64,000 bases of DNA from a virus. Position 1 is the stretch's first letter. Every line of letters starts with the position of its first letter. The position numbers and the translations under genes were made by a program. The notes under the pieces were generated by a model. The model saw only the letters and a list, made by a program, of their open reading frames with translations. It was not told where the DNA came from and made no database searches. Below are positions 7,028-20,311 of the stretch, in pieces. The stretch spans positions 84,428 through 148,427 of IMG/VR virus record IMGVR_UViG_3300005096_000137. The stretch is one strand, 5' to 3'.

Positions 7028-9687
7028 AGACCATTCAGATGTCGGTGTTTGCGGACACCATCATGAAACAGAAATACTCACATGAACTCACGGGCTCGAT
7101 TGCCGAGAAGATGGAGGTACCTGACGGGACCAAAGAGGAATGGCCTAGTATTGCTTACCGTGTGACTAAGAACGTGTTGAAACCCTTGGGGTACACAATG
7201 CGGGACAAGGTATCCCAGGATATTTGCAAGATGATCACTGAGAGGAAGTTCCTCCCCGCCGGGCGGTATCTGTATGCCAGTGGACGTCCGTATAGTCAAG
7301 TTCAGAATTGCTACAGTGCGGAGACTGAGGTCATCACCAGTTTGGGGACCTTCACCATTCAGGAACTGTCCGAGACCAATGCAGGTAAGCATACCATCAT
7401 GACCTCCCAGGGTAGGTGGGTGGAAGCTGATTTCAGGTGTTTTGGTGTACAAACTCTCATGGAGGTTGAATTAGGCTTCGGACGCGGGGGTAAGACACTG
7501 TATGCCACAGCAGAACATAGTTGGCGAGTAGCTGAGTCGTTTGGGATCGATCAGTCCCGAGGGGGTCGAAGACGCTTTACACAGAAACATAAGGTTCTCA
7601 CTCAAGACCTGACACCCGGGGATACACTCTGGCAGACCTTCGGGTATGGTATGAGTCGCACCCCTATCAACCCTGTGGGTATCCAACATGGTTTTGTCTG
7701 GGGTGACGGGAACATTAGTACTAAGGGGCATCAGTGTACTGTGCGACTGTGTGGGGACAAGCAAGAGTACATGGATGAGTACTTCGCATTGTTCCCTAAC
7801 CATGTGATTGAGGATGACATTGAATTGTCACTCCTCCCAAGCCATTTCAAAAGCCTTGTGCCCCTCCAGTATGATAGGTCCTACCTTCTCGGTTGGTTAG
7901 TCGGGTACTTCGCAGCAGATGGGTGTGTCGCCGACAACGGACGCATGACCCTCCTCAGTCATGATATATCCTCGGTGCAACACGTAAAGGACGTCTGTGC
8001 TATCCTGGGTATTGGGTGCAATCAAATACTGACTGGCACCAAGACATCCAATCTGGATGGTAAGGAATACACCCACTATTCGGTGTCATTTGACCGTTCC
8101 ACTGTCACAAAAGACTTCTTCCTCAACCCTGAGCACCAAGACCGCTGGTTGGAAAACCCACCCCAGAAACAGACCTTCTGGAAGGTAAAGTCGGTCAAGC
8201 GAACGGATAGGGTCGAACCTGTGTATTGCGCAATTGTGCCTGATACTCATGAGTTTGTCTTGGCAGACAATATCCTAACGGGTAACTGCCTACTCTTGAG
8301 GTGCCATGACAGTCGAGAAGGTTGGTCAGAGCTACTCCACAATGCCAGCATGGCTCTGATGACCGGTGCTGGTATCGGAGTGGACTATTCGGACCTCCGC
8401 AGTGAGGGTGCCACGATTCGGGGAACAGGCGGGAAAGCCACCGGACCTATTGCCTTGATGCAGATGCTCAATGAGTGTGGTCGTGGTATTATGCAGGGAG
8501 GCGCGCGTCGCAGTGCTATCTGGGCTGGTCTCCGCTGGGACCATCCGGACATTCACAAGTTTATTCGTATTAAGAATTGGTCGGATGACGTCAAAGCCAT
8601 GAAGGCTAAGGACTTCAATTTCCCCGCTCCTCTGGATTGTACCAACATCAGTGTGCAACTCAACGACGAGTTCTTTGAAGCCTTCCACGACAACGAACAT
8701 GTAAAGCACTCGCTCGCACAATCAGTGTACTGGGCAGTGATTGAACAAGCCCTGGAGACGGCTGAGCCTGGATTCAGTGTGGACACTGGTAAGAACAGTG
8801 GTGAGACCCTGCGGAATGCTTGCACAGAAATCTCCTCCAAGGATGACTCCGACATCTGTAATTTAGGTTCAATCAATTTAGCGAGAATCGACGATATCGA
8901 GGAATTCGAGAAGGTGGTTGATTTGGGTACCCTGTTCCTACTTGCAGGCACAGTTTACAGTGATGTACCCTACGAGAAGGTCGATCGCGTGCGTACCAAG
9001 AACCGACGTTTAGGTCTTGGACTCATGGGCGTTCACGAGTGGCTTATCAAGCGAGGGAAGCCCTATGCTCCCGATGAGGACCTTGAGAAGTGGCTGAAGA
9101 AGTATAAGAAGTCGGGGAAGATTGCGAACAAGTATGCGGATCAATTTGGACTCTCGCGTCCGAAGAAGACTCGGTCCATTGCTCCCACGGGTACCATCTC
9201 GATTATTGCTGAGACAACCGGTGGGCTGGAACCACTGTTTTGTATTGCGTATAAGCGACGATACCTAAAGCACAACAATTGGTGCTACCAGTATGTCATT
9301 GACCCAACAGCAAAGCGACTCATTGATGCTGGTGCTGATCCCCATTCCATAGAGGACGCCTATACGTTGGCAGAAGACGTGGAAAGACGGGTCAAGTTCC
9401 AGCATTGGATTCAGCAGTTCGTCGACCATGGAATCAGCAGTACGGTCAACCTACCCGCATGGGGTACCAAATTGAACAACAAATCCAAGGTGCAGCCTTT
9501 TGGAACCATGCTAATGAAGTACCTCCCTGAGCTACGAGGGATCACCTGCTACCCAGATGGGTGCCGTTCTGGACAACCCTTCACGCCATGTGACTATGAA
9601 GAAGCCTTGCGTCACGAGGGTGCTGAATTGGTTGAAGAAGCCGTCCAAGCCTGTAGTTTGGCAAAAGGCGGAGATTGTGGAGATTAG
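7018..9687 (+). CDS. nrdJ: Class II (B12-dependent) ribonucleotide reductase with intein
   Basis: Reduces ribonucleotides to deoxyribonucleotides. Extein motifs: AGRYLYASGRPYSQVQN, CLLLRCHDS, GGARRSAIWAGL, NACTEI, CNLGSINLARI, APTGTISIIAE, and a C-terminal Cys pair (QACSLAK..DCGD) for redox relay. The precursor is 889 aa. An in-frame intein of 326 aa (residues 98-423) leaves about 563 aa after splicing, a compact class II enzyme. No separate small subunit or activase is nearby, which fits the cobalamin class. Overlaps phoH at its start. Confidence 0.9.
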   Translation: MQLETIQMSVFADTIMKQKYSHELTGSIAEKMEVPDGTKEEWPSIAYRVTKNVLKPLGYTMRDKVSQDICKMITERKFLPAGRYLYASGRPYSQVQNCYSAETEVITSLGTFTIQELSETNAGKHTIMTSQGRWVEADFRCFGVQTLMEVELGFGRGGKTLYATAEHSWRVAESFGIDQSRGGRRRFTQKHKVLTQDLTPGDTLWQTFGYGMSRTPINPVGIQHGFVWGDGNISTKGHQCTVRLCGDKQEYMDEYFALFPNHVIEDDIELSLLPSHFKSLVPLQYDRSYLLGWLVGYFAADGCVADNGRMTLLSHDISSVQHVKDVCAILGIGCNQILTGTKTSNLDGKEYTHYSVSFDRSTVTKDFFLNPEHQDRWLENPPQKQTFWKVKSVKRTDRVEPVYCAIVPDTHEFVLADNILTGNCLLLRCHDSREGWSELLHNASMALMTGAGIGVDYSDLRSEGATIRGTGGKATGPIALMQMLNECGRGIMQGGARRSAIWAGLRWDHPDIHKFIRIKNWSDDVKAMKAKDFNFPAPLDCTNISVQLNDEFFEAFHDNEHVKHSLAQSVYWAVIEQALETAEPGFSVDTGKNSGETLRNACTEISSKDDSDICNLGSINLARIDDIEEFEKVVDLGTLFLLAGTVYSDVPYEKVDRVRTKNRRLGLGLMGVHEWLIKRGKPYAPDEDLEKWLKKYKKSGKIANKYADQFGLSRPKKTRSIAPTGTISIIAETTGGLEPLFCIAYKRRYLKHNNWCYQYVIDPTAKRLIDAGADPHSIEDAYTLAEDVERRVKFQHWIQQFVDHGISSTVNLPAWGTKLNNKSKVQPFGTMLMKYLPELRGITCYPDGCRSGQPFTPCDYEEALRHEGAELVEEAVQACSLAKGGDCGD
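7309..8286 (+). mobile_element. Intein with LAGLIDADG homing endonuclease in nrdJ
   Basis: The intein begins at Cys98 (CYSAETEVIT) and ends ..ILTGN before the extein Cys424. Block B-like ATAEHSWRV is present, and block F reads CAIVPDTHEFVLADN. Two dodecapeptide-like motifs are visible: HGFVWGDG (about 7687-7710) and LLGWLVGYFAADG (about 7888-7926), each with an acidic catalytic position, so a DOD endonuclease is likely intact. The penultimate residue is Gly rather than the usual His. The insertion point is directly before the Cys matching the first active-site Cys of reductases. Confidence 0.9.
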
Positions 9688-9690
9688 GGG

Positions 9691-9719
9691 TTGACCTTAC
9701 TCTTTGGACCAACTAGGAT
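9691..9719 (+). promoter_or_regulatory. Sigma-70-type promoter for mazG
   Basis: TTGACC, 17-base spacer, TAGGAT. It lies just after the nrdJ stop and 35 bases before the MazG start. Confidence 0.6.
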
Positions 9720-9753
9720 AGAGGAATAGAAACAAACTCTCTGGAGACATACA

Positions 9754-10320
9754 ATGCTGATTGCTGATTACGTTGCACAAGCCCGTTCGGTTGCCCACTA
9801 CCATGACAAGGCTCCGAATGCCAATTTCATCTACCCCGCCCTGGGGCTCTGCGGTGAGATTGGGGAGGCTCTTGATAAGGTACAACACGTAGATGACGCG
9901 GAGGCCATCACTGGAGAATTAGGTGATGTCCTGTGGTACGTGGTAAACACCGCCTTGGATTTGGACATCACCATCCCTTCCGTCATTGATAGTATCATTC
10001 TTGGTGGTACAGAGTGTCAGACCTTTGACCAACTTCAAGGTCGTTTCCTTGCCCTGGATGCCTCCTGCTTTCTAGCCTTCGTGGTGTATGCCGGACGTAT
10101 TGCAGAAATTGCAAAGAAATCCATCCGTGATACCAACGGGTCTGTTTCTGACGAGAAAGTACAGATCATTCGCGAGAACTTAGGCTACATCCTCCTGGGC
10201 ATCACACGCTTTGCCGATATGTATAGCGTACCCCTCCAGGCTGTAGCACAAGCTAACATTAACAAACTGTTTTCCCGCCGCGACCGAGGGGTTCTCTCGG
10301 GTGACGGCGACAATCGCTAA
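9754..10320 (+). CDS. mazG: MazG-like nucleotide pyrophosphohydrolase
   Basis: Predicted NTP or dNTP pyrophosphohydrolase. The all-alpha NTP-PPase metal motif is visible: LGLCGEIGEALDKV (ExxE) followed by ELGDVLWYV (ExxD), about residues 30-70, in a 188-aa protein. A longer C-terminal helical extension (VVYAGRIAEIAKK) resembles a second half-motif. Phage MazG is thought to cleanse the nucleotide pool or adjust ppGpp. Own promoter upstream. Confidence 0.82.
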   Translation: MLIADYVAQARSVAHYHDKAPNANFIYPALGLCGEIGEALDKVQHVDDAEAITGELGDVLWYVVNTALDLDITIPSVIDSIILGGTECQTFDQLQGRFLALDASCFLAFVVYAGRIAEIAKKSIRDTNGSVSDEKVQIIRENLGYILLGITRFADMYSVPLQAVAQANINKLFSRRDRGVLSGDGDNR

Positions 10321-10334
10321 TACGGAGAAACACT

Positions 10335-10685
10335 GTGGCTGACTTTACGAGCTTTACAATCGAGAAAGAAGTGGACCTGGGATACTACCCAGCCCGTCTC
10401 TTTGACCGGAATCGGACGATTACGATACCTGTCGAAGGTACCCCCAATTCGGACGTCATCTTTACCCCGACCGTGAATACTAACCCACCCGAGGACACTA
10501 ACCCATCCGAGAGTCTGGAAACGGCCATCGTGAATACGTTGGATTTTCCAAATGAAGAAGAGTTTGACGCCCTGTTCAAACGCAATGATTCACTTCGGGA
10601 ACAAGGCCTCCAGACCTTGGAGGATGTTCCTGATATCACCCGAAGGGTGAAACTCCGGATCACCGTTGAAGTTCTCGACGACTAA
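10335..10685 (+). CDS. Hypothetical protein (GTG start)
   Basis: 116 aa; GTG start with GGAG eight bases before it. A Pro/Asn/Thr-rich middle (about 36-60) is flanked by beta-type segments. No recognised family. Last gene before a terminator. Confidence 0.6.
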   Translation: MADFTSFTIEKEVDLGYYPARLFDRNRTITIPVEGTPNSDVIFTPTVNTNPPEDTNPSESLETAIVNTLDFPNEEEFDALFKRNDSLREQGLQTLEDVPDITRRVKLRITVEVLDD

Positions 10686-10740
10686 CTTTATGCACGTTGC
10701 TTGCCATGTCCCTCTTTGGGCCCGCAGCGACGATGCACAA

Positions 10741-10790
10741 CCCCGACCGTGACGCCACCCCCCCCTATGGCTCATAGTCGGGGTCTTTTC
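10741..10790 (+). terminator. Rho-independent terminator candidate
   Basis: CCCCGAC (10741-10747) pairs with GTCGGGG (10777-10783), followed by TCTTTT. The loop is long (29 bases) and may fold further. It separates the nrdJ/mazG group from thyA. Confidence 0.65.
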
Positions 10791-10810
10791 ATTTACCTTT
10801 GGAGATTGAT

Positions 10811-11599
10811 ATGCAAAACTACTTGGATTTGATGCAGACTATCCTGGACCATGGGAACCGGAAGGGCGATCGTACTGGGACCGGGACTCTGAGTCTCTTT
10901 GGTCCTCAGCTTCGATTCGACCTAGCTGCTGGGTTCCCCTTGCTGACCACCAAGAAGCTCCACCTCCGTTCCATAATCTATGAACTGCTGTGGTTCATGC
11001 GTGGGCGTAACGACCTCGCCTACCTCCATAAACACGGGGTGAAGATTTGGGACGAATGGGCGTTGGATGACGGAACCATCGGACCTGGGTATGGTGTCCA
11101 GTGGCGTAGCTTCAATGAAGACCCAACCTGTGACCAACTCCAAGATGTACTTGACACCCTCAAGGGGAACCCCAACTGTCGGCGAATGATTGTCTCGGCG
11201 TGGAACCCCCTCCAGACGGGTAAGATGGCATTACCACCTTGTCATTTACTGTTCCAGTTCTATGTCGCCAATAACAAACTCTCGTGCAAGATGTACCAGA
11301 GAAGCTCCGATATGTTTCTAGGGGTGCCATTCAATATCGCCAGTTATGCCCTCCTCACTATGATGATGGCTAAGATGGCAGACCTAGAACTCGGGGATTT
11401 CATCTGGACATCTGGCGATTCACACATTTACTCGAACTGTATTGAACAGACCAAGACACAAGTCATGCGGGACTGCCGGAGGCTGCCGACCATGACCCTC
11501 AAAAATCGAGGTCAGGGGTTAAGTGACTGGGAGTACGACGATTTCAAATTGACCGGTTATGACCCCCACCCTCACATCAAGGCTAAAGTTTCCGTTTGA
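10811..11599 (+). CDS. thyA: Thymidylate synthase ThyA
   Basis: Makes dTMP from dUMP with methylene-tetrahydrofolate. Diagnostic segments: DRTGTGTLSLFG, FPLLTTKKLH, the WNP/PPCH catalytic region (Cys144 in LPPCHLLFQF), QRSSDMFLGVPFNIASYALL, GDSHIYSN, and a C-terminal DPHPHIKAKVSV. 262 aa, standard length. ATG at 10811 has GGAG six bases upstream. The DHFR gene at 41993 would regenerate its cofactor. Confidence 0.97.
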   Translation: MQNYLDLMQTILDHGNRKGDRTGTGTLSLFGPQLRFDLAAGFPLLTTKKLHLRSIIYELLWFMRGRNDLAYLHKHGVKIWDEWALDDGTIGPGYGVQWRSFNEDPTCDQLQDVLDTLKGNPNCRRMIVSAWNPLQTGKMALPPCHLLFQFYVANNKLSCKMYQRSSDMFLGVPFNIASYALLTMMMAKMADLELGDFIWTSGDSHIYSNCIEQTKTQVMRDCRRLPTMTLKNRGQGLSDWEYDDFKLTGYDPHPHIKAKVSV

Positions 11600-11624
11600 C
11601 AACCACAACTTTATCAGGTACACT
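11596..11624 (+). promoter_or_regulatory. Promoter giving a leaderless transcript (dam-type gene)
   Basis: TTGACA (11596-11601), 17-base spacer, TACACT (11619-11624), overlapping the 3' end of thyA. The predicted +1, seven bases past the -10 box, is the A of the ATG at 11631. Confidence 0.7.
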
Positions 11625-11630
11625 TGCAAT

Positions 11631-12155
11631 ATGGCGATCGTTTACGAAGCCACTGAGGATCGAGACTACTACGGGACACCCCCTGAATGGGCGGAACGTT
11701 GCCGCACAGTCTTGGATGGTATCGACTTAGATCCCGCTTCTTGTGAAGAAGCGAATCGACAGGTCATACGGGCAAACCGATTCATGGACAAGGAAATGAA
11801 CGCTTTGGAGCAAGATTGGAATTGCCGGTCCTTGTTTCTCAATCCACCATACAGCCGGACACTTCTCCCAGCATTTGCGAAGAAGTTTCGTACACAATGG
11901 AACCTTAACAACATTAGAGAATCGGCGATTGTTCTGATAAACAATTCCACAGAGACAGGTGCATTTGAACAGTTTAGTAGGTGTTCTGATCTTCGGGCAG
12001 AGCCCTGTGCCCGCATCCAGTTCGTGAGCACAGAAGGTCGGAGTGTGACAGGTAATCCCCGGGGTCAGGTCTTCTTTTATTATGGCCCTGATCCTGATTT
12101 ATTCTCCCGAGTCTTCCGTTGGGCGGGTTGTCGGATAATGAAGGTAGTTGAATGA
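11631..12155 (+). CDS. Phage DNA N6-adenine methyltransferase (Dam type)
   Basis: 174 aa in the phage N-6-adenine methyltransferase family: YYGTPPEWAERC at the N-terminus, DLDPAS (about 35-40) and the catalytic LFLNPPYSR (NPPY, about 66-74), followed by a conserved VLINNSTE region. Probably protects phage DNA from restriction. The ATG has no Shine-Dalgarno sequence: the -10 box ends six bases upstream, so translation is probably leaderless. An in-frame ATG at 11559 lies inside thyA and is rejected. Confidence 0.85.
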   Translation: MAIVYEATEDRDYYGTPPEWAERCRTVLDGIDLDPASCEEANRQVIRANRFMDKEMNALEQDWNCRSLFLNPPYSRTLLPAFAKKFRTQWNLNNIRESAIVLINNSTETGAFEQFSRCSDLRAEPCARIQFVSTEGRSVTGNPRGQVFFYYGPDPDLFSRVFRWAGCRIMKVVE

Positions 12156-12631
12156 TCACAGGCAACATTAGTTACGCGGCGGTCCAAATACAGGCGTTCA
12201 AGTATCGTCAGGGGGATTCCGTGTTCTGGGATGACATCAAGCACGAAGTTCCTTCGCATTCCTGCTGGGAAGATTTGACTGGCGCTGACTTCCCAGGCAG
12301 TCATCCCCTGCTCCGCATCCTGGAGGATGTGTACGGGCTCTATGTGAATTCGATCGGAGATTGGAACATTGGTTATTCGTCCTTCGTCGAGCATTATGAC
12401 TTTCAGAATCATCCAGAGGTCGGGCTACTTGAACACATGCCTCAGATAGTCAAGTTGCTGGAAGCCGAATTTGCGAAGCACCACGACAACCCCAAACAGG
12501 TGAGCATCACAACAATGTGGTCTGAGACCACATGGCAAACTCACGAAGGTGACTATGATTCGATGATTACGTTCCATGGCGGTTTCAACCTGCGTGACCT
12601 TGTAAGTCTTGCTACACCAATGGGTACCTGA
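12152..12631 (+). CDS. Tandem paralog family, copy 1
   Basis: 159 aa, unknown function. Shares with the next two genes an N-terminal pattern VQI..F..G..V..D...(V/L)P.HS.WD.L, and copy 2 also shares the C-terminal pattern TMWS.T.W......FHG.F...DL.SL. ATGA overlap with the methyltransferase. Confidence 0.65.
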   Translation: MITGNISYAAVQIQAFKYRQGDSVFWDDIKHEVPSHSCWEDLTGADFPGSHPLLRILEDVYGLYVNSIGDWNIGYSSFVEHYDFQNHPEVGLLEHMPQIVKLLEAEFAKHHDNPKQVSITTMWSETTWQTHEGDYDSMITFHGGFNLRDLVSLATPMGT

Positions 12632-12632
12632 T

Positions 12633-13148
12633 ATGTCGACCACTTACAGTATCGTCCAAATCCAGGGCAAGGCCTTCTCGAAGGGGGAGTTGGTGTACCA
12701 TGATCAATGTGATGACCTGACCCCTGGTCATTCGACTTGGGACAACCTTGCTGATGAGAAGGAGAGGTTCATCCCTAGTGGCGACCCTAATGTGGACTTT
12801 CGGGACACATCAGAGTGGGAGATAAAGGAGGATTGTATTGGGTTACGATTCACCGCGCTTGGTACACAAACCCTTCATTGGAATTCATTCTTCATCGAGT
12901 TTGTGGAGAAGTATGGGATCTTGCGGGTTGTTGAACCTTTTCGGAAGGTTATTGTAGCAGATGTTCAGGCTGCAATGGATAGGGCCTCCGAGGACTTCTG
13001 GGCACTCAAATACCACCAGACTATCAACACTCTCTGGTCGTACACCCACTGGGATACCGCAAAGCCACACAAGACACACAAGCCAGCTCTCGTGTACCAC
13101 GGACCCTTTGATATCAAAGACCTTTTATCCCTGACTCCAAGAAACTAA
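12633..13148 (+). CDS. Tandem paralog family, copy 2
   Basis: 171 aa starting MSTTYSIVQIQGKAF. Shows GHSTWDNL and a C-terminal TLWSYTHWDT..YHGPFDIKDLLSL, matching copy 1. Overlaps copy 3 by one base (TAATG). Function unknown. Confidence 0.65.
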   Translation: MSTTYSIVQIQGKAFSKGELVYHDQCDDLTPGHSTWDNLADEKERFIPSGDPNVDFRDTSEWEIKEDCIGLRFTALGTQTLHWNSFFIEFVEKYGILRVVEPFRKVIVADVQAAMDRASEDFWALKYHQTINTLWSYTHWDTAKPHKTHKPALVYHGPFDIKDLLSLTPRN

Positions 13149-13657
13149 TGAATACCATAAATAGCCACTCAATTGTCCAGGTAATTGCGGAGAGGTTCCA
13201 CAAAGGTCAGCCAGTGCTCTTTGAACGCCTCAAGGACATGGTTCCTTGCCATTCTTCTTTTGACAAACTGACTGACGCCCTGGGTTGTAGTGAGCAACCA
13301 TGTGCTAGTGTGCTCCCCACTGATGAGAGAACGTTCAAGGAAGCAGCATTCGGTATGACATTTCATTCGGTGGGAGAGCCAACCGGCGGGCATCCCTCTT
13401 GTTTTGAATACACACGGAGCCAGCAATCTCTGGAGGAGATGGTGGCCCCCTACCACACCAAGTTCGTGACCTATTGCAAGCAACACTTTCAAGCAGCCCA
13501 GAATGCCAGGACTGTCAGTAGCAACATTGTTTCGATACTCACCCTCTGGGGGAGTGCAGTTTGGATGGACAGGACGGGTAAGATTGTTACTGACAACCAG
13601 TTCCGTGGTATCCTGAACATGAACGTGTTGACAGATAATTTACTTGACAGGCAGTAG
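13148..13657 (+). CDS. Tandem paralog family, copy 3
   Basis: 169 aa. Shows SIVQVIAERFHKG, CHSSFDKL and ILTLWGSAVW, a diverged copy of the two genes before it; its end is shortened at NVLTDNLLD. The stop is followed closely by the promoter of the Tat operon, whose -35 box lies within this gene's last codons. Confidence 0.62.
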   Translation: MNTINSHSIVQVIAERFHKGQPVLFERLKDMVPCHSSFDKLTDALGCSEQPCASVLPTDERTFKEAAFGMTFHSVGEPTGGHPSCFEYTRSQQSLEEMVAPYHTKFVTYCKQHFQAAQNARTVSSNIVSILTLWGSAVWMDRTGKIVTDNQFRGILNMNVLTDNLLDRQ

Positions 13658-13672
13658 TCTATGGTGTACACT
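13644..13672 (+). promoter_or_regulatory. Promoter of the Tat-signal operon
   Basis: TTGACA (13644-13649), 17-base spacer, TACACT (13667-13672), followed by GAGAGTAA, a motif also seen after other -10 boxes here. Expression by host sigma-70 is predicted. Confidence 0.72.
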
Positions 13673-13699
13673 TGAGAGTAAACCTGTTGGAGACTTCAA

Positions 13700-14635
13700 A
13701 TGCTTGATCGTCGTGTATTTCTAAAGACCCTAAGCGCTGGTGCAATTGCGGCTATCCATGCAGCTAATGCAGCTAATGCAGCTAATGCAGAGACACCCCC
13801 GCTACCTCACTCTCACCCACTCCCACGTCCACAGTTTATCTGCCTTCCAAAGCGGTTCCCGGAGCCCCCAAGACAAATTCACATAGGTCCTCGAAAAGGA
13901 AAGCATGCGCCACGCCTCTGGCAAGTCCCACAAGGTTGGTTTAAGTATCGGGACCATAAACTACTGGGCACTTGTGGCGCTGGCAGTACCACAGAAGAGG
14001 ACATCGGGACCTTTACAGCAGGTCCCGGAGAAGACAAGCTTCAGTACCGTTTTGGCAAGACCCTGGAGTGCGACGGTTTTATGCGAATAGGTGCCAGTCA
14101 CACTGGTTGGACAAATCCCATATTCCTCCTGGCAGTTCATGACGGACCTGTTGTTGAATTCGGGTGTTACGGTCGCCAACCCGGCGATCTGGCGTTGGAA
14201 TTGGGGTCCCGTCCATACTATCACCCCTGCTCGTTTGTCTCAGTGTTCCGACCCAATAGTCCACTACCTGATGATGGTCACTACGAGACCACGATTGATT
14301 GGGACCTAGGTTCCCAGAAGGCAGACCCATACAAAACTGCCCTTCGCTTGAATTTTGCATACGAACATTACAGTCTTTCACGATCCCAGCGGATGGCTGA
14401 TTTCGTGATGCCTCCTCGAATGCTGGCTTTTGAATATGACAATGATGCGTATGATGCAATTATGTATGCTATGGATAGTTACAAGGTTGCTCCCACCCAG
14501 GGCTTCCGGATATCAAGCCACGGGTACAATTTCCAACTCTCTACCCGAAATCCACCAGTCCTGGCTCAGAATTACGCAATACAATCAGCCAGTGCCATGC
14601 GAGGCAGTCCAGTATGCTTAGACGAGACTTCCTAA
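13700..14635 (+). CDS. Tat-signal exported protein 1
   Basis: 311 aa. The N-terminus MLDRRVFLKTLSAGAIAAI is a textbook twin-arginine leader, with likely cleavage after ANA near residue 31. The leader contains a 9-bp DNA repeat giving AANAANAANA. The mature part has a core shared with the next three proteins: ECDGFMRIG .. IFLLAVHDGPVVEF. Cys and Pro content is high. Exported folded by Tat; function unknown. First gene of a five-gene operon; GGAG lies before the ATG. Confidence 0.75.
   Translation: MLDRRVFLKTLSAGAIAAIHAANAANAANAETPPLPHSHPLPRPQFICLPKRFPEPPRQIHIGPRKGKHAPRLWQVPQGWFKYRDHKLLGTCGAGSTTEEDIGTFTAGPGEDKLQYRFGKTLECDGFMRIGASHTGWTNPIFLLAVHDGPVVEFGCYGRQPGDLALELGSRPYYHPCSFVSVFRPNSPLPDDGHYETTIDWDLGSQKADPYKTALRLNFAYEHYSLSRSQRMADFVMPPRMLAFEYDNDAYDAIMYAMDSYKVAPTQGFRISSHGYNFQLSTRNPPVLAQNYAIQSASAMRGSPVCLDETS
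13760..13786 (+). repeat. 9-bp tandem repeat in Tat leader
   Basis: Three copies of GCAGCTAAT encode Ala-Ala-Asn at the end of the hydrophobic core of the signal peptide. Length changes by slippage would alter the cleavage region without a frameshift. Confidence 0.9.
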
Positions 14636-15207
14636 AGGCAACGGGCGCGAGCCTAGCACTGTCAAGCATGGCAGTTGCTGGGCTCCCGGTGTTGACACCA
14701 CCACCAAAATGCAAACCTATACCCCAGTACCTGGAACTGTTCCAGCCATACCATCGCCGACTCGACGGTGTAAAACCTGGTCAGTTCTTTACGTACAAGG
14801 GTCATTGGAAACAAGTCGAGAGTTACGGAAGTGAAGTACGTTGTGACGGGTACATGTACCTGGGTGATCGTTTGATGCCACCAAAGAATCGATGGTCCAT
14901 TGGAGATGCACCAGTGTTTTTGATTGCACTCACTAATGGTCCCATTGTTGAATTGGTAGGCGACTGCTTGGAAGACCCAGCATTCGCGAAACTCCTGGGA
15001 CCAATAACTCACCCGTACCCATTTGAATTGTACACCATGATGAACGAGGATGTGCTGTCCGACTTCACATGGTATTATGCGGACGTCACACAGAATGCGT
15101 GCGAAGAAATGACTTATGGTTCACCCAGCTACCTGGACGTTGAGTCCAGAATGCAGAAGGTGCGAAGTTATTATAACATTGACGAGCACGGTATGGTTCA
15201 GAAATAG
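14614..15207 (+). CDS. Tat-signal exported protein 2
   Basis: 197 aa. The leader MLRRDFLKATGASLALSSMA is twin-arginine type. The core RCDGYMYLG .. VFLIALTNGPIVELVG aligns with protein 1, while the C-terminal half is shorter. It starts 22 bases inside protein 1, so translation is probably coupled. Function unknown. Confidence 0.73.
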   Translation: MLRRDFLKATGASLALSSMAVAGLPVLTPPPKCKPIPQYLELFQPYHRRLDGVKPGQFFTYKGHWKQVESYGSEVRCDGYMYLGDRLMPPKNRWSIGDAPVFLIALTNGPIVELVGDCLEDPAFAKLLGPITHPYPFELYTMMNEDVLSDFTWYYADVTQNACEEMTYGSPSYLDVESRMQKVRSYYNIDEHGMVQK

Positions 15208-15217
15208 GGGATTTCAG

Positions 15218-16048
15218 ATGGACAGACGCGGATTTCTAGGCAAGCTTGGTATTGGGGTAGCAGCGGCTGGTGTTTTGGGCCGTGAGGCTATCGCGCGGAT
15301 TCCCAAGGAGACCAAGAAACTTCCCAAGGAGCTATTACTACCTCCCGAGAAACTCACCTTGGCTGAGGTGACCACTGCTGAGGTGACCACTGCTCTCAAG
15401 AGTAATTTCCCGGGGTTTGTGGACCAGGTTTCAAATACCGCGACAAAAGTTCCCCGCCGGTTGCCCACTCACATTGCCCACCACCTCTACCCAGACAATG
15501 GTTTGTACCTCCAATTGATGAACTGCGATCACCATGTCCCTAACAAACGTTACGGTAAATACCGATCGGGAGAATACGTGATCCAGAGTATCAATGACCC
15601 ACCTGGCTTACAGGTCCTTGGTTCAGAGTTTACCATTGATGGCGCTGCCATGGCAGGTTATGTGGCGGTACACAGTCCAACGGGGATTATATCCGAGGAC
15701 CTAAAGAGTCCATTGTTCACTGATTTCCAACTCATGGCCAAGCGGAACCCACTCGACTATCATGTTGGCTGTGTCATGTGGTTAGCCCTGAGGAATGGTC
15801 CAGTGGTTGCATATAACTTCTTGAACAAAGCCCAACATCGGTGTGCCCGTACCCTTCGAGGCTCTCAGGACGTTGCATATCCTTGGTGTCTACAATCACG
15901 GGAATTTCGCAACAATGTGGGTGTGAATCACATTCGCTTTTATTACATGGCTGTGGCTGGAACTACACACGAACCCCGGACTACACCCGAATCAATACGT
16001 GAGAGATTTGTGGAAGAAGGTATGTCTAACCCTGGAGAATTACGATGA
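15218..16048 (+). CDS. Tat-signal exported protein 3
   Basis: 276 aa. The leader MDRRGFLGKLGIGVAAAGVL is twin-arginine type. A 15-bp direct repeat encodes AEVTT twice after the leader. The family core is AGYVAVHS .. VMWLALRNGPVVAYN. ATG at 15218 has AGGGG upstream; an earlier in-frame ATG at 15116 would bury the signal and lies in the previous gene. Function unknown. Confidence 0.73.
   Translation: MDRRGFLGKLGIGVAAAGVLGREAIARIPKETKKLPKELLLPPEKLTLAEVTTAEVTTALKSNFPGFVDQVSNTATKVPRRLPTHIAHHLYPDNGLYLQLMNCDHHVPNKRYGKYRSGEYVIQSINDPPGLQVLGSEFTIDGAAMAGYVAVHSPTGIISEDLKSPLFTDFQLMAKRNPLDYHVGCVMWLALRNGPVVAYNFLNKAQHRCARTLRGSQDVAYPWCLQSREFRNNVGVNHIRFYYMAVAGTTHEPRTTPESIRERFVEEGMSNPGELR
15362..15391 (+). repeat. 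15-bp direct repeat in Tat protein 3
   Basis: Two exact copies of GCTGAGGTGACCACT, in frame, just after the signal peptide. Confidence 0.9.
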
Positions 16049-16848
16049 GTTTGAATCGACGCGGCTTTCTTGGATTCCTTGGACTGGGTGCAGTTGCTGC
16101 TGGAGCAGCATCTATTCCAGCCAAAGCTTTGGCGGGCGCCAAGGACGTGCTCCCTGAGTCTTTATTGACAGAGGTCTCAACCCCTGAGGCTCTTGTGCCC
16201 CACCAAGGGGCTCACTTAGACCCCACCACGGATTACCCTCACATACTCCGCTTGGTCCATGGGAATAGCCATTGGGCACGCCGTGGGCAGGCTGAGGCTG
16301 GGGACTGGATTACCCATGCGTGGAGGTCCAAGCAGTGTGTCTCCCATGGTCGCCGTCTGAGGTGCATCGGGTTTCGACATTTGGGCGATGTCGCCTTCCA
16401 CTTCCACGAGCTGGAAGCAGGCACTGTGACAGACAAGTACACAGATCCGGATAGTCCAGAGTTCAAGGAGGTTGTCCAGAAGGCAGGCGAGTCCCGAGTC
16501 CCTTATGGTGTCAGTCATTATGCCTGGGGACCCCGCTATTCCATAACCCTTGTAGGTATTGGAGCTGTCGAATTCACGGGGTTGAACCGGAGCAACCGGG
16601 GGTTTATGCGGCAGGCGATGGGCAAGCGGACCTCTTGTGACGCATTCACACTGGTGTCCCAAAAGGTGGTTCACTCAACTGGCGGAACCTGGTTTAAGCC
16701 TACGATGGAATTCATTGATTCAAATGAGAGTAAGCTGTGGACACCCAGCTTAACTCAGCGAGTTGGAAAGAGTCAAATCTCCAAGTTCGCCAACATGTCC
16801 TCAACCCAGTTTGAATCAATGTATCGTGATGACAGGGATATGAGATGA
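16045..16848 (+). CDS. Tat-signal exported protein 4
   Basis: 267 aa. The leader MSLNRRGFLGFLGLGAVAAG ends in a probable ALA cleavage site. The core RLRCIGFRHLGD .. YSITLVGIGAVEFTG is a diverged version of the family pattern. ATGA overlap with gene 3 and with gene 5. Function unknown. Confidence 0.73.
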   Translation: MSLNRRGFLGFLGLGAVAAGAASIPAKALAGAKDVLPESLLTEVSTPEALVPHQGAHLDPTTDYPHILRLVHGNSHWARRGQAEAGDWITHAWRSKQCVSHGRRLRCIGFRHLGDVAFHFHELEAGTVTDKYTDPDSPEFKEVVQKAGESRVPYGVSHYAWGPRYSITLVGIGAVEFTGLNRSNRGFMRQAMGKRTSCDAFTLVSQKVVHSTGGTWFKPTMEFIDSNESKLWTPSLTQRVGKSQISKFANMSSTQFESMYRDDRDMR

Positions 16849-17861
16849 ACAACCGACGTGATTTCTTAAAGACATTGGGACTTGGAGCCGCTGGGGTTAC
16901 CCTGGTGGGTCGGCAGTTGTTGGTAGGGTCTCCTAAGGGTGTCCCCTCAGTCAAACTCCCACCAATTAGGGCTCTGGGGAGTGACTCACTTCCGGTTGAT
17001 CCCCCGAGGATTGAACTTCCACCAGTTGGAATGACCTACCCTACTCAGGATAACCTACTGCCCTCAATGTGGGCAGTCAGTGCTCAGAGACTCCTTGAAC
17101 AGAATCTGGTCATGGGTAATCTGGTTCACCGGGATTGTAGCGACGAGGTGTCACAGTTTGGGGACATAATCAATTTGAGAAGCCCTGGCTGCAATATCCC
17201 AATACCACTGGACCAGCTTTTCTCCACACACTTTGTCATCAGAGATGGGGATGCCTCCAAGTCCTTTCAAGAATTAAGGGAGCAATACCTCCGCCCGAGT
17301 ATCCAAAAGCTTGCTCGCCAGATTGACCAGGCACTCATTGGGCAAGCTGTCCACTACACGGATAATACCGTTGGGGGTCAGTACTCTCTCTATGGTGCTA
17401 ATGCAACCAACACCATCATTGATGCTCGCCGGAAACTAAACGATAATAGGGCACCCCTCTCTGACCGTAACCTGGTGTTGTCGACTGCCAGCTCGCAAGC
17501 CCTAAAGTGTTCAGAGATACTCCCGGTCATTCGGGATGGGGGTGGGTATCCGCCTCAAATCACTGCTCTCGAAGAAGCACGTCTGGGAAAGTACATTGGC
17601 TTCACCTGCTGGCATGTTCCTGATATGCCGTGGCATATCAACCTGGGTTTCCACCCTGACACAATGGCCCTGGTCACCCGACCATTACCTCTGGCCCTAC
17701 CTAGACTCCCCATCCGCTCAGGTATTGGTGTTCACAACAACCTTGCACTCCGGGTGTCAATGATGTATGACGTGCAGACGTCTGGGACACGGATAACCAC
17801 GGATGTGTTGGCGGGTATTGGTGTTCTTGACACTAACTTAGGCGTTATCATAGAAGGCTAG
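16845..17861 (+). CDS. Tat-signal protein with P22-coat-like (HK97-fold) domain
   Basis: 338 aa. The leader MNNRRDFLKTLGLGAAGVTL is twin-arginine type. From about residue 63 the sequence follows the P22 coat family: RLLEQNLVMGNLVHRD, GDIINLRSP, YLRPSIQKLARQIDQAL, RKLNDNRAPLSDRNLVL, LGKYIGF, then LGFHPDTMALVTRPL and GIGVLDTNLGVIIEG near the end. Such proteins normally assemble capsids in the cytoplasm; an export leader is unexpected. No portal, protease or scaffold gene is adjacent. It could be a repurposed capsid protein or a misread leader on a true coat protein. Confidence 0.78.
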   Translation: MNNRRDFLKTLGLGAAGVTLVGRQLLVGSPKGVPSVKLPPIRALGSDSLPVDPPRIELPPVGMTYPTQDNLLPSMWAVSAQRLLEQNLVMGNLVHRDCSDEVSQFGDIINLRSPGCNIPIPLDQLFSTHFVIRDGDASKSFQELREQYLRPSIQKLARQIDQALIGQAVHYTDNTVGGQYSLYGANATNTIIDARRKLNDNRAPLSDRNLVLSTASSQALKCSEILPVIRDGGGYPPQITALEEARLGKYIGFTCWHVPDMPWHINLGFHPDTMALVTRPLPLALPRLPIRSGIGVHNNLALRVSMMYDVQTSGTRITTDVLAGIGVLDTNLGVIIEG

Positions 17862-17868
17862 ACATATT

Positions 17869-18945
17869 ATGTACAGAATAATCAGAGGCGATAATTTGGA
17901 CTGGTTTGACCAGACCTATCGGAGGTTTGACACCATCTTTGCCGACCCACCTGATAACATCGGGCTGGGGTACAATGAGTACGTGGATAAGGTGGTCGCG
18001 ACCACTTACACCACAAGTCTAAGTATGTGGCTCCATGCCTTTATTCCTCGCGCTGAGACTACCTGGCTGTCCTTCAATTCCCGATGGTTATTACCGATGG
18101 CAGCCATTGCACAGCAGGTGGTTGATAAGTTTGGTGTCGAATTCAAACCCTGCGTCCAGACCTTCAGCTTCTATCAGAACAACAAGTTCGACTTGGGCAA
18201 TGCCCACCGTCCCCTCTGGAGGTTCTGTCATCCTGGGGTCAAGCTGTATCCAGAGGCTGTGAAGGTCCCCTCCTGGCGTCAGCTCAATGGCGACAAGCGT
18301 GCAACCGCCGGCGGGAAGGTCCCGGGCGATGCGTTTGACTTCACTAAGCTTCCCGAGAAGCAACGTCGAGATTGGCACACCAGAGCGGTTCAGAGCGGCG
18401 AGTGGGTCGTGGACGCCCTCATCCCTGATGATCACTTCGATTTCACCCGAGTCACTGGGAATAGTAAACAGCGTCGAAACTGGCATCCCACCCAATTGGG
18501 GGAGGGACTTGTCGAACGGTGCGTCCGGCTGACAACACCCAACGGGGGAACTGTCATGGACCCCTTTGCAGGTACAGGTACCACCCTCCGGGTATGCAAG
18601 AGCATCGGGAATCTGGATTGCACCCTGGTTGAATTAGATCCAAAGTACTGCCAACATATTGCGGAGGAACACAATTTGACTGTCGAAGCAATTAAACAAG
18701 AGTTTTGTGCGAAGTGTCACAATACAGACCCAAACAAGACAACAGGAGTCGAGTATGCTTACGGATCACCAGACCGATATGATGGCGTCTCTGAATGGCG
18801 CTGCGCTGTATGTCATGCCCGCACCGGTCGTTGGTCTGGGAAAGTGCTCACCGGTGGCGAGAAGGAGCGTAGATTTGGCGTGGATTATAAAGACCAAGAA
18901 ACCCTTGAAGACGGAACCACCCTCCAACATAGGTACGAACGATGA
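17869..18945 (+). CDS. DNA methyltransferase (DPPD type) with zinc ribbon
   Basis: 358 aa. The N-terminus RIIRGDNLDW..DTIFADPPDN carries catalytic motif IV as DPPD. The SAM-binding motif DPFAGTGTT follows much later (about 227-235), the order of beta-class amino-methyltransferases (N6A or N4C). A C-terminal region has paired CxxC motifs (CAKC, CAVC), a likely zinc ribbon. No partner endonuclease nearby; probably self-protection. Eight bases after the coat-like gene, so perhaps co-transcribed. Confidence 0.8.
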   Translation: MYRIIRGDNLDWFDQTYRRFDTIFADPPDNIGLGYNEYVDKVVATTYTTSLSMWLHAFIPRAETTWLSFNSRWLLPMAAIAQQVVDKFGVEFKPCVQTFSFYQNNKFDLGNAHRPLWRFCHPGVKLYPEAVKVPSWRQLNGDKRATAGGKVPGDAFDFTKLPEKQRRDWHTRAVQSGEWVVDALIPDDHFDFTRVTGNSKQRRNWHPTQLGEGLVERCVRLTTPNGGTVMDPFAGTGTTLRVCKSIGNLDCTLVELDPKYCQHIAEEHNLTVEAIKQEFCAKCHNTDPNKTTGVEYAYGSPDRYDGVSEWRCAVCHARTGRWSGKVLTGGEKERRFGVDYKDQETLEDGTTLQHRYER

Positions 18946-18982
18946 CTGATTCCATTTACGATTTACGAATGCGGAGACAACA

Positions 18983-19201
18983 ATGAGTACAATGAATGAC
19001 TGTCGAGGTACAACAATCCATCTTGGTGATCGAGTGGTGTTTCCCGATGAAAGGGATGGTTATCTGAGGCTGCGCGAAGGGGTGGTGACCAATGTGAGCC
19101 AAGAGAGGGTATGCGCGATGCCACTCCCTGAGAGTGACATCCCTCATTGTATCTACGTCCTTCGTTCACCTCACTTGATGATGGTTACGAACGGTGACTG
19201 A
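18983..19201 (+). CDS. Small barrel-like protein, family member 1
   Basis: 72 aa, GGAG upstream. Pattern CRGTTIHLGDRVVF..EGVVTNVS resembles small SH3-like beta barrels and recurs in four genes between 19891 and 20731. Function unknown. Confidence 0.6.
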   Translation: MSTMNDCRGTTIHLGDRVVFPDERDGYLRLREGVVTNVSQERVCAMPLPESDIPHCIYVLRSPHLMMVTNGD

Positions 19202-19841
19202 AACAATTGGCTTCCCGCACGGGCACCATTGGTACTCGTTGATGGACCGTATGGGCATACCACATCGGAAATCAGTGTTTGAACGACTCCGGGATAGTTA
19301 TTCTGAACCTGCCCGAGCGTACCACAATGGGGTTCATCTCTCGAACTGTCTGGCTGAGTTGAGTGTGTGGCATGGGCTTGCCAGGTATCCTGATGAAGTT
19401 GAGTTTGCCTTGTGGTTTCATGACATAGTCTATGACACACATCGTGATGACAATGAAGACCACAGTGCCGCATTTGCTGCGGAAATTCTCGATTATGCTG
19501 GTTGTGATGAACAAGTCCGCTACCGTATCATTGGGAATATCCTCGCAACCAGTCACACTGAGGGTTGGAACCACACAGACGAGAAACTTACTGCTGATAT
19601 TGACCTCACTACCCTGGGTGAGTCAGAGTGGGTGTACTGCGAATTTGAGAGAGCAATCCGGCTGGAATACCTCTGGGTGCCCCTTCCGGAGTATTGTAAG
19701 AAACGGATCGAGGTTTTGCAGGGCTTCCTCGATCGGGAACGTATTTACCACCATGCTGCAATTGCCGACCTCTTTGAGGAACCAGCTAGGCGGAATTTGA
19801 AACGGGCAATAGGGTGGGTGTCCGCAAGCAGTGGCATTTGA
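19194..19841 (+). CDS. HD-superfamily phosphohydrolase
   Basis: 215 aa. Metal-binding HD motifs: RAYHNGVHLSN (His), LWFHDIVYD (HD) and DNEDHSA, then NILATSHTEGW, as in the predicted HD hydrolases of COG4339. Likely a nucleotide phosphohydrolase; substrate not known. GTG start overlapping the preceding gene by eight bases; the ribosome site is weak. Confidence 0.78.
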   Translation: MTETIGFPHGHHWYSLMDRMGIPHRKSVFERLRDSYSEPARAYHNGVHLSNCLAELSVWHGLARYPDEVEFALWFHDIVYDTHRDDNEDHSAAFAAEILDYAGCDEQVRYRIIGNILATSHTEGWNHTDEKLTADIDLTTLGESEWVYCEFERAIRLEYLWVPLPEYCKKRIEVLQGFLDRERIYHHAAIADLFEEPARRNLKRAIGWVSASSGI

Positions 19842-19880
19842 CAACTTCCACTTGACAACTTCCACTTGATAAACTAGAAT
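19838..19880 (+). promoter_or_regulatory. Promoter with duplicated -35 boxes
   Basis: TTGACAACTTCCAC occurs twice (19838 and 19852), followed by TTGATA. The second TTGACA has a 17-base spacer to TAGAAT (19875-19880). Predicted +1 lies about four bases before the ATG at 19891. Confidence 0.65.
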
Positions 19881-19890
19881 TGAGAGTAGG

Positions 19891-20106
19891 ATGAACGACA
19901 TGTATTTAACTGACTTCCGAGGCGTAATCATCCGGCATGGGGACACCATTGTCTGTGCCATGTTCGTACTCGGAACACTGACGATGGTGGAAGGTAAGGT
20001 CACGTCTATTGGTGGCAATTACCTGACAGTCGAAGACATTACAGGGGAGTCCCACAGTATTATGGGCATGAATTTGGTTACTGTTTTGGAGGATCACCGT
20101 GCTTGA
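19891..20106 (+). CDS. Small barrel-like protein, family member 2
   Basis: 71 aa. Pattern DFRGVIIRHGDTIV..EGKVTSIGGNYLTVED matches the neighbouring small genes. Very short 5' leader predicted from the promoter just upstream. Confidence 0.6.
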   Translation: MNDMYLTDFRGVIIRHGDTIVCAMFVLGTLTMVEGKVTSIGGNYLTVEDITGESHSIMGMNLVTVLEDHRA

Positions 20107-20311
20107 TTGTGCCGGACTGGATATTGACGTCAGAGACGAAGTTGTGTTTGTGGATATCGACGAGTTGGGACATCAATGCCTGACCTGTGCCAACGTGTCT
20201 GTCGTGAATGATGTTGGCATTAGGGTGGTTGAACAAGATGGTACAGCTTGCAACATCACAGAGTCAAAGAAGGTTGCTGTCACTTGGAAAGAGGGTTACA
20301 GACAAGAATGA
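20099..20311 (+). CDS. Small barrel-like protein, family member 3
   Basis: 70 aa, overlapping member 2 by eight bases. Pattern GLDIDVRDEVVFVD..ANVSVVNDVGIRVVEQDG. GTG start with AGGA a few bases upstream. Function unknown. Confidence 0.55.
   Translation: MLDCAGLDIDVRDEVVFVDIDELGHQCLTCANVSVVNDVGIRVVEQDGTACNITESKKVAVTWKEGYRQE

Follow-up and report, generated by a model that had tools for sequence, protein, structure and literature searches.

Why would a virus set an export signal in front of a protein with the fold of a capsid subunit? The question is raised by a window of 64,000 nucleotides from a large tailed phage, running from base 84428 to base 148427 of an IMG/VR fragment 148427 bases long (IMGVR_UViG_3300005096_000137), the remainder of which was also analyzed. 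The gene concerned is T8, the last of five consecutive genes (T4 to T8) encoding proteins with a leader for the twin-arginine translocation (Tat) pathway. We propose, with a probability of roughly 0.55, that T8 is a duplicate of the capsid protein of the phage's own lineage that has been stripped of its assembly elements and is sent via Tat to the envelope. Its features are given below in window coordinates.

16845..17861, + strand: T8, Tat-leadered HK97-fold protein of 338 residues (PF11651, phrog_283, AlphaFold, Foldseek)
16845..16934, + strand: Tat-type leader, residues 1-30 (MNNRRDFLKTLGLGAAGVTLVGRQLLVGSP), with NRRDFLK motif, h-region LGLGAAGVTLVG, and no AxA site (PF10518, hydropathy)
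16935..17039, + strand: Pro-rich linker, residues 31-65, predicted disordered (alignment, AlphaFold)
17040..17858, + strand: capsid core of the HK97/P22 type, lacking both the E-loop tip and the lineage's inserted domain
17184..17195, + strand: site of the missing E-loop tip, ~20 residues, between RSPG and CNIP (comparison with relatives)
17613..17636, + strand: site of the missing inserted (I-like) domain, ~140-170 residues, around VPDMPWHI (comparison with lineage)

Capsid core, missing blocks, and leader of T8

A preliminary description of this DNA had seen a P22-coat-like pattern in this open reading frame (ORF), and the motifs it quoted are present. T8 matches the P22_CoatProtein family (PF11651) at E = 1.2e-10, within the family cut-off, and the phrog_283 major head protein at 5.6e-26, in three stretches; the profile match spans the N-arm, the P/A core, and the C-terminus of the P22-type major capsid protein. 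Against a capsid profile of its lineage it scores 251 bits, compared with 3.3 for the best of 2000 shuffles. An AlphaFold model, built with ten relatives in the input, has an HK97-like core (predicted TM-score [pTM], 0.68) and disordered residues 1-67. Among solved structures, Foldseek places the capsid of mycobacteriophage Douge first (5.8e-13), with the Che8 capsid and then encapsulins also matched, and in BFVD major capsid proteins make up most of the named top matches. The HK97 fold that had been suspected is therefore borne out.

Relative to its own lineage, T8 lacks exactly two blocks, the E-loop tip and the inserted domain, and both deletions are in frame. Its E-loop region measures 31 residues, versus 48 to 53 among 81 relatives and 51 among 80 lineage members, a count that leaves out one further match, L252, a gene fragment in which that region is absent. 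More than 150 intact relatives all keep the E-loop, and T8 alone is without its tip. In the model of the capsid protein from the related contig L123, an extended loop of ~22 residues joins strands 58-62 and 85-89, whereas in the T8 model strands 108-113 and 116-121 are connected at this position by a turn of 2 residues. In HK97-type shells, E-loops overlap the spine helix of the neighboring subunit, as described for the capsid protein (CP) and for Ccm (PMC8569155). Two other proteins, L198 and L199, were considered as cores without the inserted domain and rejected; both come from capsid genes in which the domain is only partly missing, the E-loop is full, and a Tat leader is absent.

The missing tip bears on the earlier idea that T8 builds a periplasmic shell or an encapsulin-like compartment. 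The HK97 fold, together with the encapsulins among the Foldseek matches, speaks for such a shell. Nevertheless, the E-loop that holds neighboring subunits is cut to a tight turn, Tat moves folded proteins rather than shells, and no cargo gene is evident, although the cargo search was not systematic; we regard a shell as very improbable. Under our proposal, the lineage's capsid gene would have been duplicated, and the duplicate would have lost the two parts that build or elaborate the shell. The stripped protein should then fold as a monomeric core, neither assembling nor poisoning the real capsid. Loss of the E-loop tip fits export, because a capsid protein leaving the cytoplasm should not assemble first, and so does the absence of the inserted domain.

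The first ~65 residues of T8 are extra relative to capsid proteins, which begin at about residue 66, and its alignment to actinophage capsids and more than 150 IMG/VR contigs starts at about residue 60-71. None of the more than 150 intact capsid relatives carries a Tat leader. The TAT_signal family (PF10518) scores 21.8 bits (1.7e-4) on the T8 protein, just below its cut-off of 22.7, and 25.7 bits, above it, in the genome search; with the same type of leader on seven other genes of the record, the leader reported earlier stands. The h-region that follows the twin-arginine motif is moderately hydrophobic (mean Kyte-Doolittle value, 1.76). No AxA-type cleavage site occurs in residues 1-60, a result that concerns cleavage and not targeting, and because none follows the h-region, T8 is perhaps membrane anchored. 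A Shine-Dalgarno (SD)-like AGGG lies before the first ATG at a spacing of 7 nucleotides, and an in-frame ATG at codon 63 has no clear SD sequence. Export of T8 through Tat is a prediction from its leader.

The missing head module and the capsid tree

Does T8 supply the coat of its own virion? It is the only capsid-family gene in the record, and neither a portal nor a terminase was found in the 148 kb. A terminase candidate (a phrog_2 match) was rejected, the gene being PhoH, and own_39539 has a portal-like match of 42 residues. The record opens in virion genes that precede the tail tube, and the tape measure gene lies at record positions 7539-11405. Relatives were recovered via a tail-tube search; scans of viral contigs with T8, T7, or the DNA polymerase as single proteins yielded no relative, and a scan of genome contigs matched Tat leaders only, in Bacteroidota genomes. 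The closest large relative, G002 (104 kb), has a tail tube 78% identical to this record's and is collinear with it. Its intact capsid gene occupies 66949-68364, with the counterpart of own_3471 directly after it and scaffold, portal-like, and terminase-like genes upstream.

By this synteny, the true capsid gene is absent from the record because the fragment begins just downstream of the head module, and it should sit in the missing part, just left of the first base. Comparison with G002 puts this gap at roughly 25-30 kb, and an intact capsid gene there would be expected to encode 460-520 residues. That no portal, protease, or scaffold gene adjoins T8, a point made in the preliminary description, is correct locally but fails as an argument; the record is truncated at the head genes, and nothing about the virus as a whole can therefore be concluded from not seeing them. 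A search of the record for capsid-family genes finds T8 alone, and synteny with G002 places the true major capsid gene beyond the record's start. In each of 16 related records the capsid gene is single.

In the capsid tree, T8 groups with the proteins of L123 and L124, its closest relatives (support, 97/99), which come from contigs with tail tubes 79% and 73% identical to this record's. Its branch of 1.54 is 5 to 9 times longer than theirs (0.17 and 0.34), and according to a warning of the tree program the placement of long branches is less certain. Over 338 open codons, core residues have been kept despite about 1.5 changes per site. On the strength of the tree, the missing blocks, and synteny, T8 is most likely a fast-evolving paralog and not the coat protein, and repurposing of a paralog is the earlier suggestion that holds.

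In the competing view, T8 is the sole major capsid protein of the virion and has an unusual N-terminus that is removed in the manner of a delta domain. This view can point to the strong family match and to the lack of another capsid-family gene in the record; however, this record is missing the whole head module. The protein also lacks the E-loop tip and the inserted domain, and it is 45% identical to the G002 capsid protein, versus 78% for the tail tube and 54-83% for several other structural proteins. Moreover, the gene lies within an insertion, among DNA-metabolism genes. We find this view hardly credible.

The T4-T8 insertion and other leader-bearing genes

The surroundings of T8, again in window coordinates, are as follows.

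10335..17861, + strand: 7.5-kb block absent from G002, with a thymidylate synthase-like gene, small paralogs, and T4 to T8 (synteny)
13700..14635, + strand: T4, Tat-leadered, with classic AxA repeats (HAANAANAANAE)
14614..15207, + strand: T5, Tat-leadered, paralog of T4 (BLAST, 5e-6) and T7 (1e-4)
15218..16048, + strand: T6, Tat-leadered, no known family
16045..16848, + strand: T7, Tat-leadered, no known family, ATGA overlap with T8
17869..18945, + strand: N6/N4 DNA methyltransferase, the right flank common to G002

The flanks of the block adjoin in G002 (own 94181-94747 corresponds to G2_8861-9427, and own 102296 to G2_8100-8864), which places T8 in an insertion relative to that genome, among DNA-metabolism genes. 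GC content is flat at the locus. The neighbors of T8 are Tat genes and the methyltransferase, not scaffold or portal genes, while intact capsid genes sit in head modules. T4, T5, and T7 look like mutual paralogs and match nothing known; across T4 to T7 (13700-16848) there is a partly common motif, CDGF/YM.LG ... GPVVEF, without known relative. Three consecutive ORFs of 159, 179, and 169 residues at window positions 12152-13657 are also apparent mutual paralogs, with no family match.

A gene in such a place might be a decaying duplicate or an assembly chimera without function, as its long branch, its occurrence in a single record, and several structural-gene fragments elsewhere in that record would allow. 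Yet the frame has stayed open with its core residues conserved, both deletions are in frame, the start overlaps T7 and has an SD-like site, and the locus is collinear with G002 on both flanks and flat in GC content. We consider such a decaying or chimeric origin improbable.

Eight ORFs of the record (T1 to T8) start with a twin-arginine motif followed by a hydrophobic stretch, most of them behind a purine-rich, SD-like sequence. A scan of ~1.17 Mb of other viral DNA, judged by eye, gave one clear case (L105/L106, the same gene), versus eight in 148 kb here. They occupy three places, at record positions 66087-69986 (T1, T2), 71077-72495 (T3), and 94763-102290 (T4 to T8), and all three are insertions relative to G002. 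T3 appears to resemble the lineage's tail tube, with matches in BLAST (2.5e-6, G23 tube) and in a hidden Markov model (HMM) search (0.006) and a score of 11.9 bits, compared with 4.3 for the best of 2000 shuffles; in hhalign the tube is the best of 133 profiles, at a weak probability of 21%. T2 has a capsid-like segment of 27 residues (HMM, 0.002; 12.9 bits versus 6.0 for shuffles). Pfam, PHROG, and lineage profile searches gave no virion-protein match for T1 or for T4 to T7.

Tat leaders are used in this lineage anyway, because in G002, G027, and G036 a different protein with such a leader, papain-like by eye (Pfam only 0.043), is encoded ~8-10 kb upstream of the capsid gene. The G036 copy (L277:7-1563) has, also by eye, an apparent intein-like insertion (CFAAGTMVQ...VHNC) relative to its G002 and G027 homologs.

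Other pieces of virion genes recur in the record. Three short ORFs that have no Tat leader give matches to the C-terminal portion of the lineage's scaffolding protein (HMM, 4e-8, 2e-5, and 7e-6) at record positions 74201-74572, 74565-74891, and 75527-75844 (L005:17201-17572, 17565-17891, and 18527-18844) and are possibly free coat-binding domains. Between T1 and T2, at 68687-68929 (L005:11687-11929), an 80-residue ORF resembles the C-terminal end of ORF 75-938 in the virion region (49% identity over 74 residues). The tail region (record 12377-20218) has a tandem of eight genes, 296-369 residues long and in two paralogous groups; the first weakly matches tail fiber families.

The scaffold-like ORFs lend some weight to a cytoplasmic role, in which the leader would be unused or bypassed and T8 would modulate capsid assembly of its own phage or of a competing phage or satellite. 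There is precedent in SaPIbov5, whose Ccm, a capsid homolog with 24% identity, redirects helper assembly (PMC8569155), and the ATG at codon 63 offers a start behind the leader. However, Ccm keeps the E-loop whose tip T8 lacks, the SD-like AGGG stands at the first ATG and codon 63 has no clear equivalent, and a modulator would need no Tat leader, let alone one common to seven other genes. Such a role is unlikely, though it deserves to be taken seriously.

The envelope reading and known systems

Computation gives the homology and fold of T8, its place in the tree, the blocks it lacks, the insertion that sets its locus apart from G002, and the Tat-type leaders; from these we infer export, a monomeric state, and a role. 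With its acquired twin-arginine leader and Pro-rich linker, T8 would be made as the last gene of the T4-T8 run. The Tat translocase carries folded proteins, and that of the host would take the folded core to the periplasm, where T8 would probably be tethered to the inner membrane. T3 may reflect the same conversion, of a tail-tube protein. As to the role, our favored guess, a doubtful one, is that T8 acts at the cell envelope to disturb related phages that superinfect or compete; we favor it because part of the Tat set appears virion derived. It is possible that T8, T3, and perhaps T2 and others form a system of Tat-exported, assembly-disabled virion mimics that act in the periplasm against such phages. 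Defense systems that sense capsid or tail-tube proteins are not known to act outside the cell, and an intracellular decoy therefore fits the leader of T8 poorly. Several such systems have been listed (PMC10884400).

Several points weigh against this account. T8 is present in one assembled record only, and its export is predicted from a leader that has no AxA site and a Pfam score that is borderline in one of two scans. Taken singly, the matches of T3 (hhalign, 21%) and T2 (27 residues) are weak, and a theme of exported virion copies is not general, since T1 and T4 to T7 match no virion protein. Nor is any periplasmic function of a capsid core known to us.

Proteins with the HK97 fold are known either to form shells (capsids and encapsulins) or to modify them. 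If our proposal is true, a monomeric exported core would show that the fold is usable as a plain domain, phages would recycle virion genes into envelope proteins with Tat as a route for phage proteins, and there would be a lead, open to testing, on how related phages exclude one another. Repurposed capsid paralogs, such as Ccm, and HK97-fold compartments, such as encapsulins, are already known; among the open-access titles and abstracts listed in literature searches there was neither a Tat-exported virion protein nor a Tat-leadered core without an E-loop tip.

The nearest known proteins are the P22 coat/phrog_283 capsids (Hiyaavirus, Gordonia phage Aleemily, and the L123/G002 lineage), whose HK97 core is homologous to that of T8 and about 22-46% identical. 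T8 differs from them in lacking the E-loop tip (and, relative to its own lineage, the inserted domain), in carrying a Tat leader, and in lying outside the head module. The papain-like protein of G002, G027, and G036 shares its phage lineage and type of leader with T8 but is protease-like and is encoded upstream of the capsid gene. The tail assembly blocker Tab exemplifies phage-encoded interference via virion proteins, the kind of role suggested for T8; the target through which it blocks the assembly of tails is the tape measure protein (PMC10884400). Encapsulins, like T8, have the HK97 fold outside a virion, but they form shells with cargo, whereas shell formation is not expected of a protein without the E-loop tip. 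Finally, Ccm of SaPIbov5, 24% identical to the helper's protein, is like T8 a diverged capsid paralog put to another use; Ccm keeps the E-loop and N-arm and builds procapsid pentamers, while T8 is without the E-loop tip and bears an export leader (PMC8569155).
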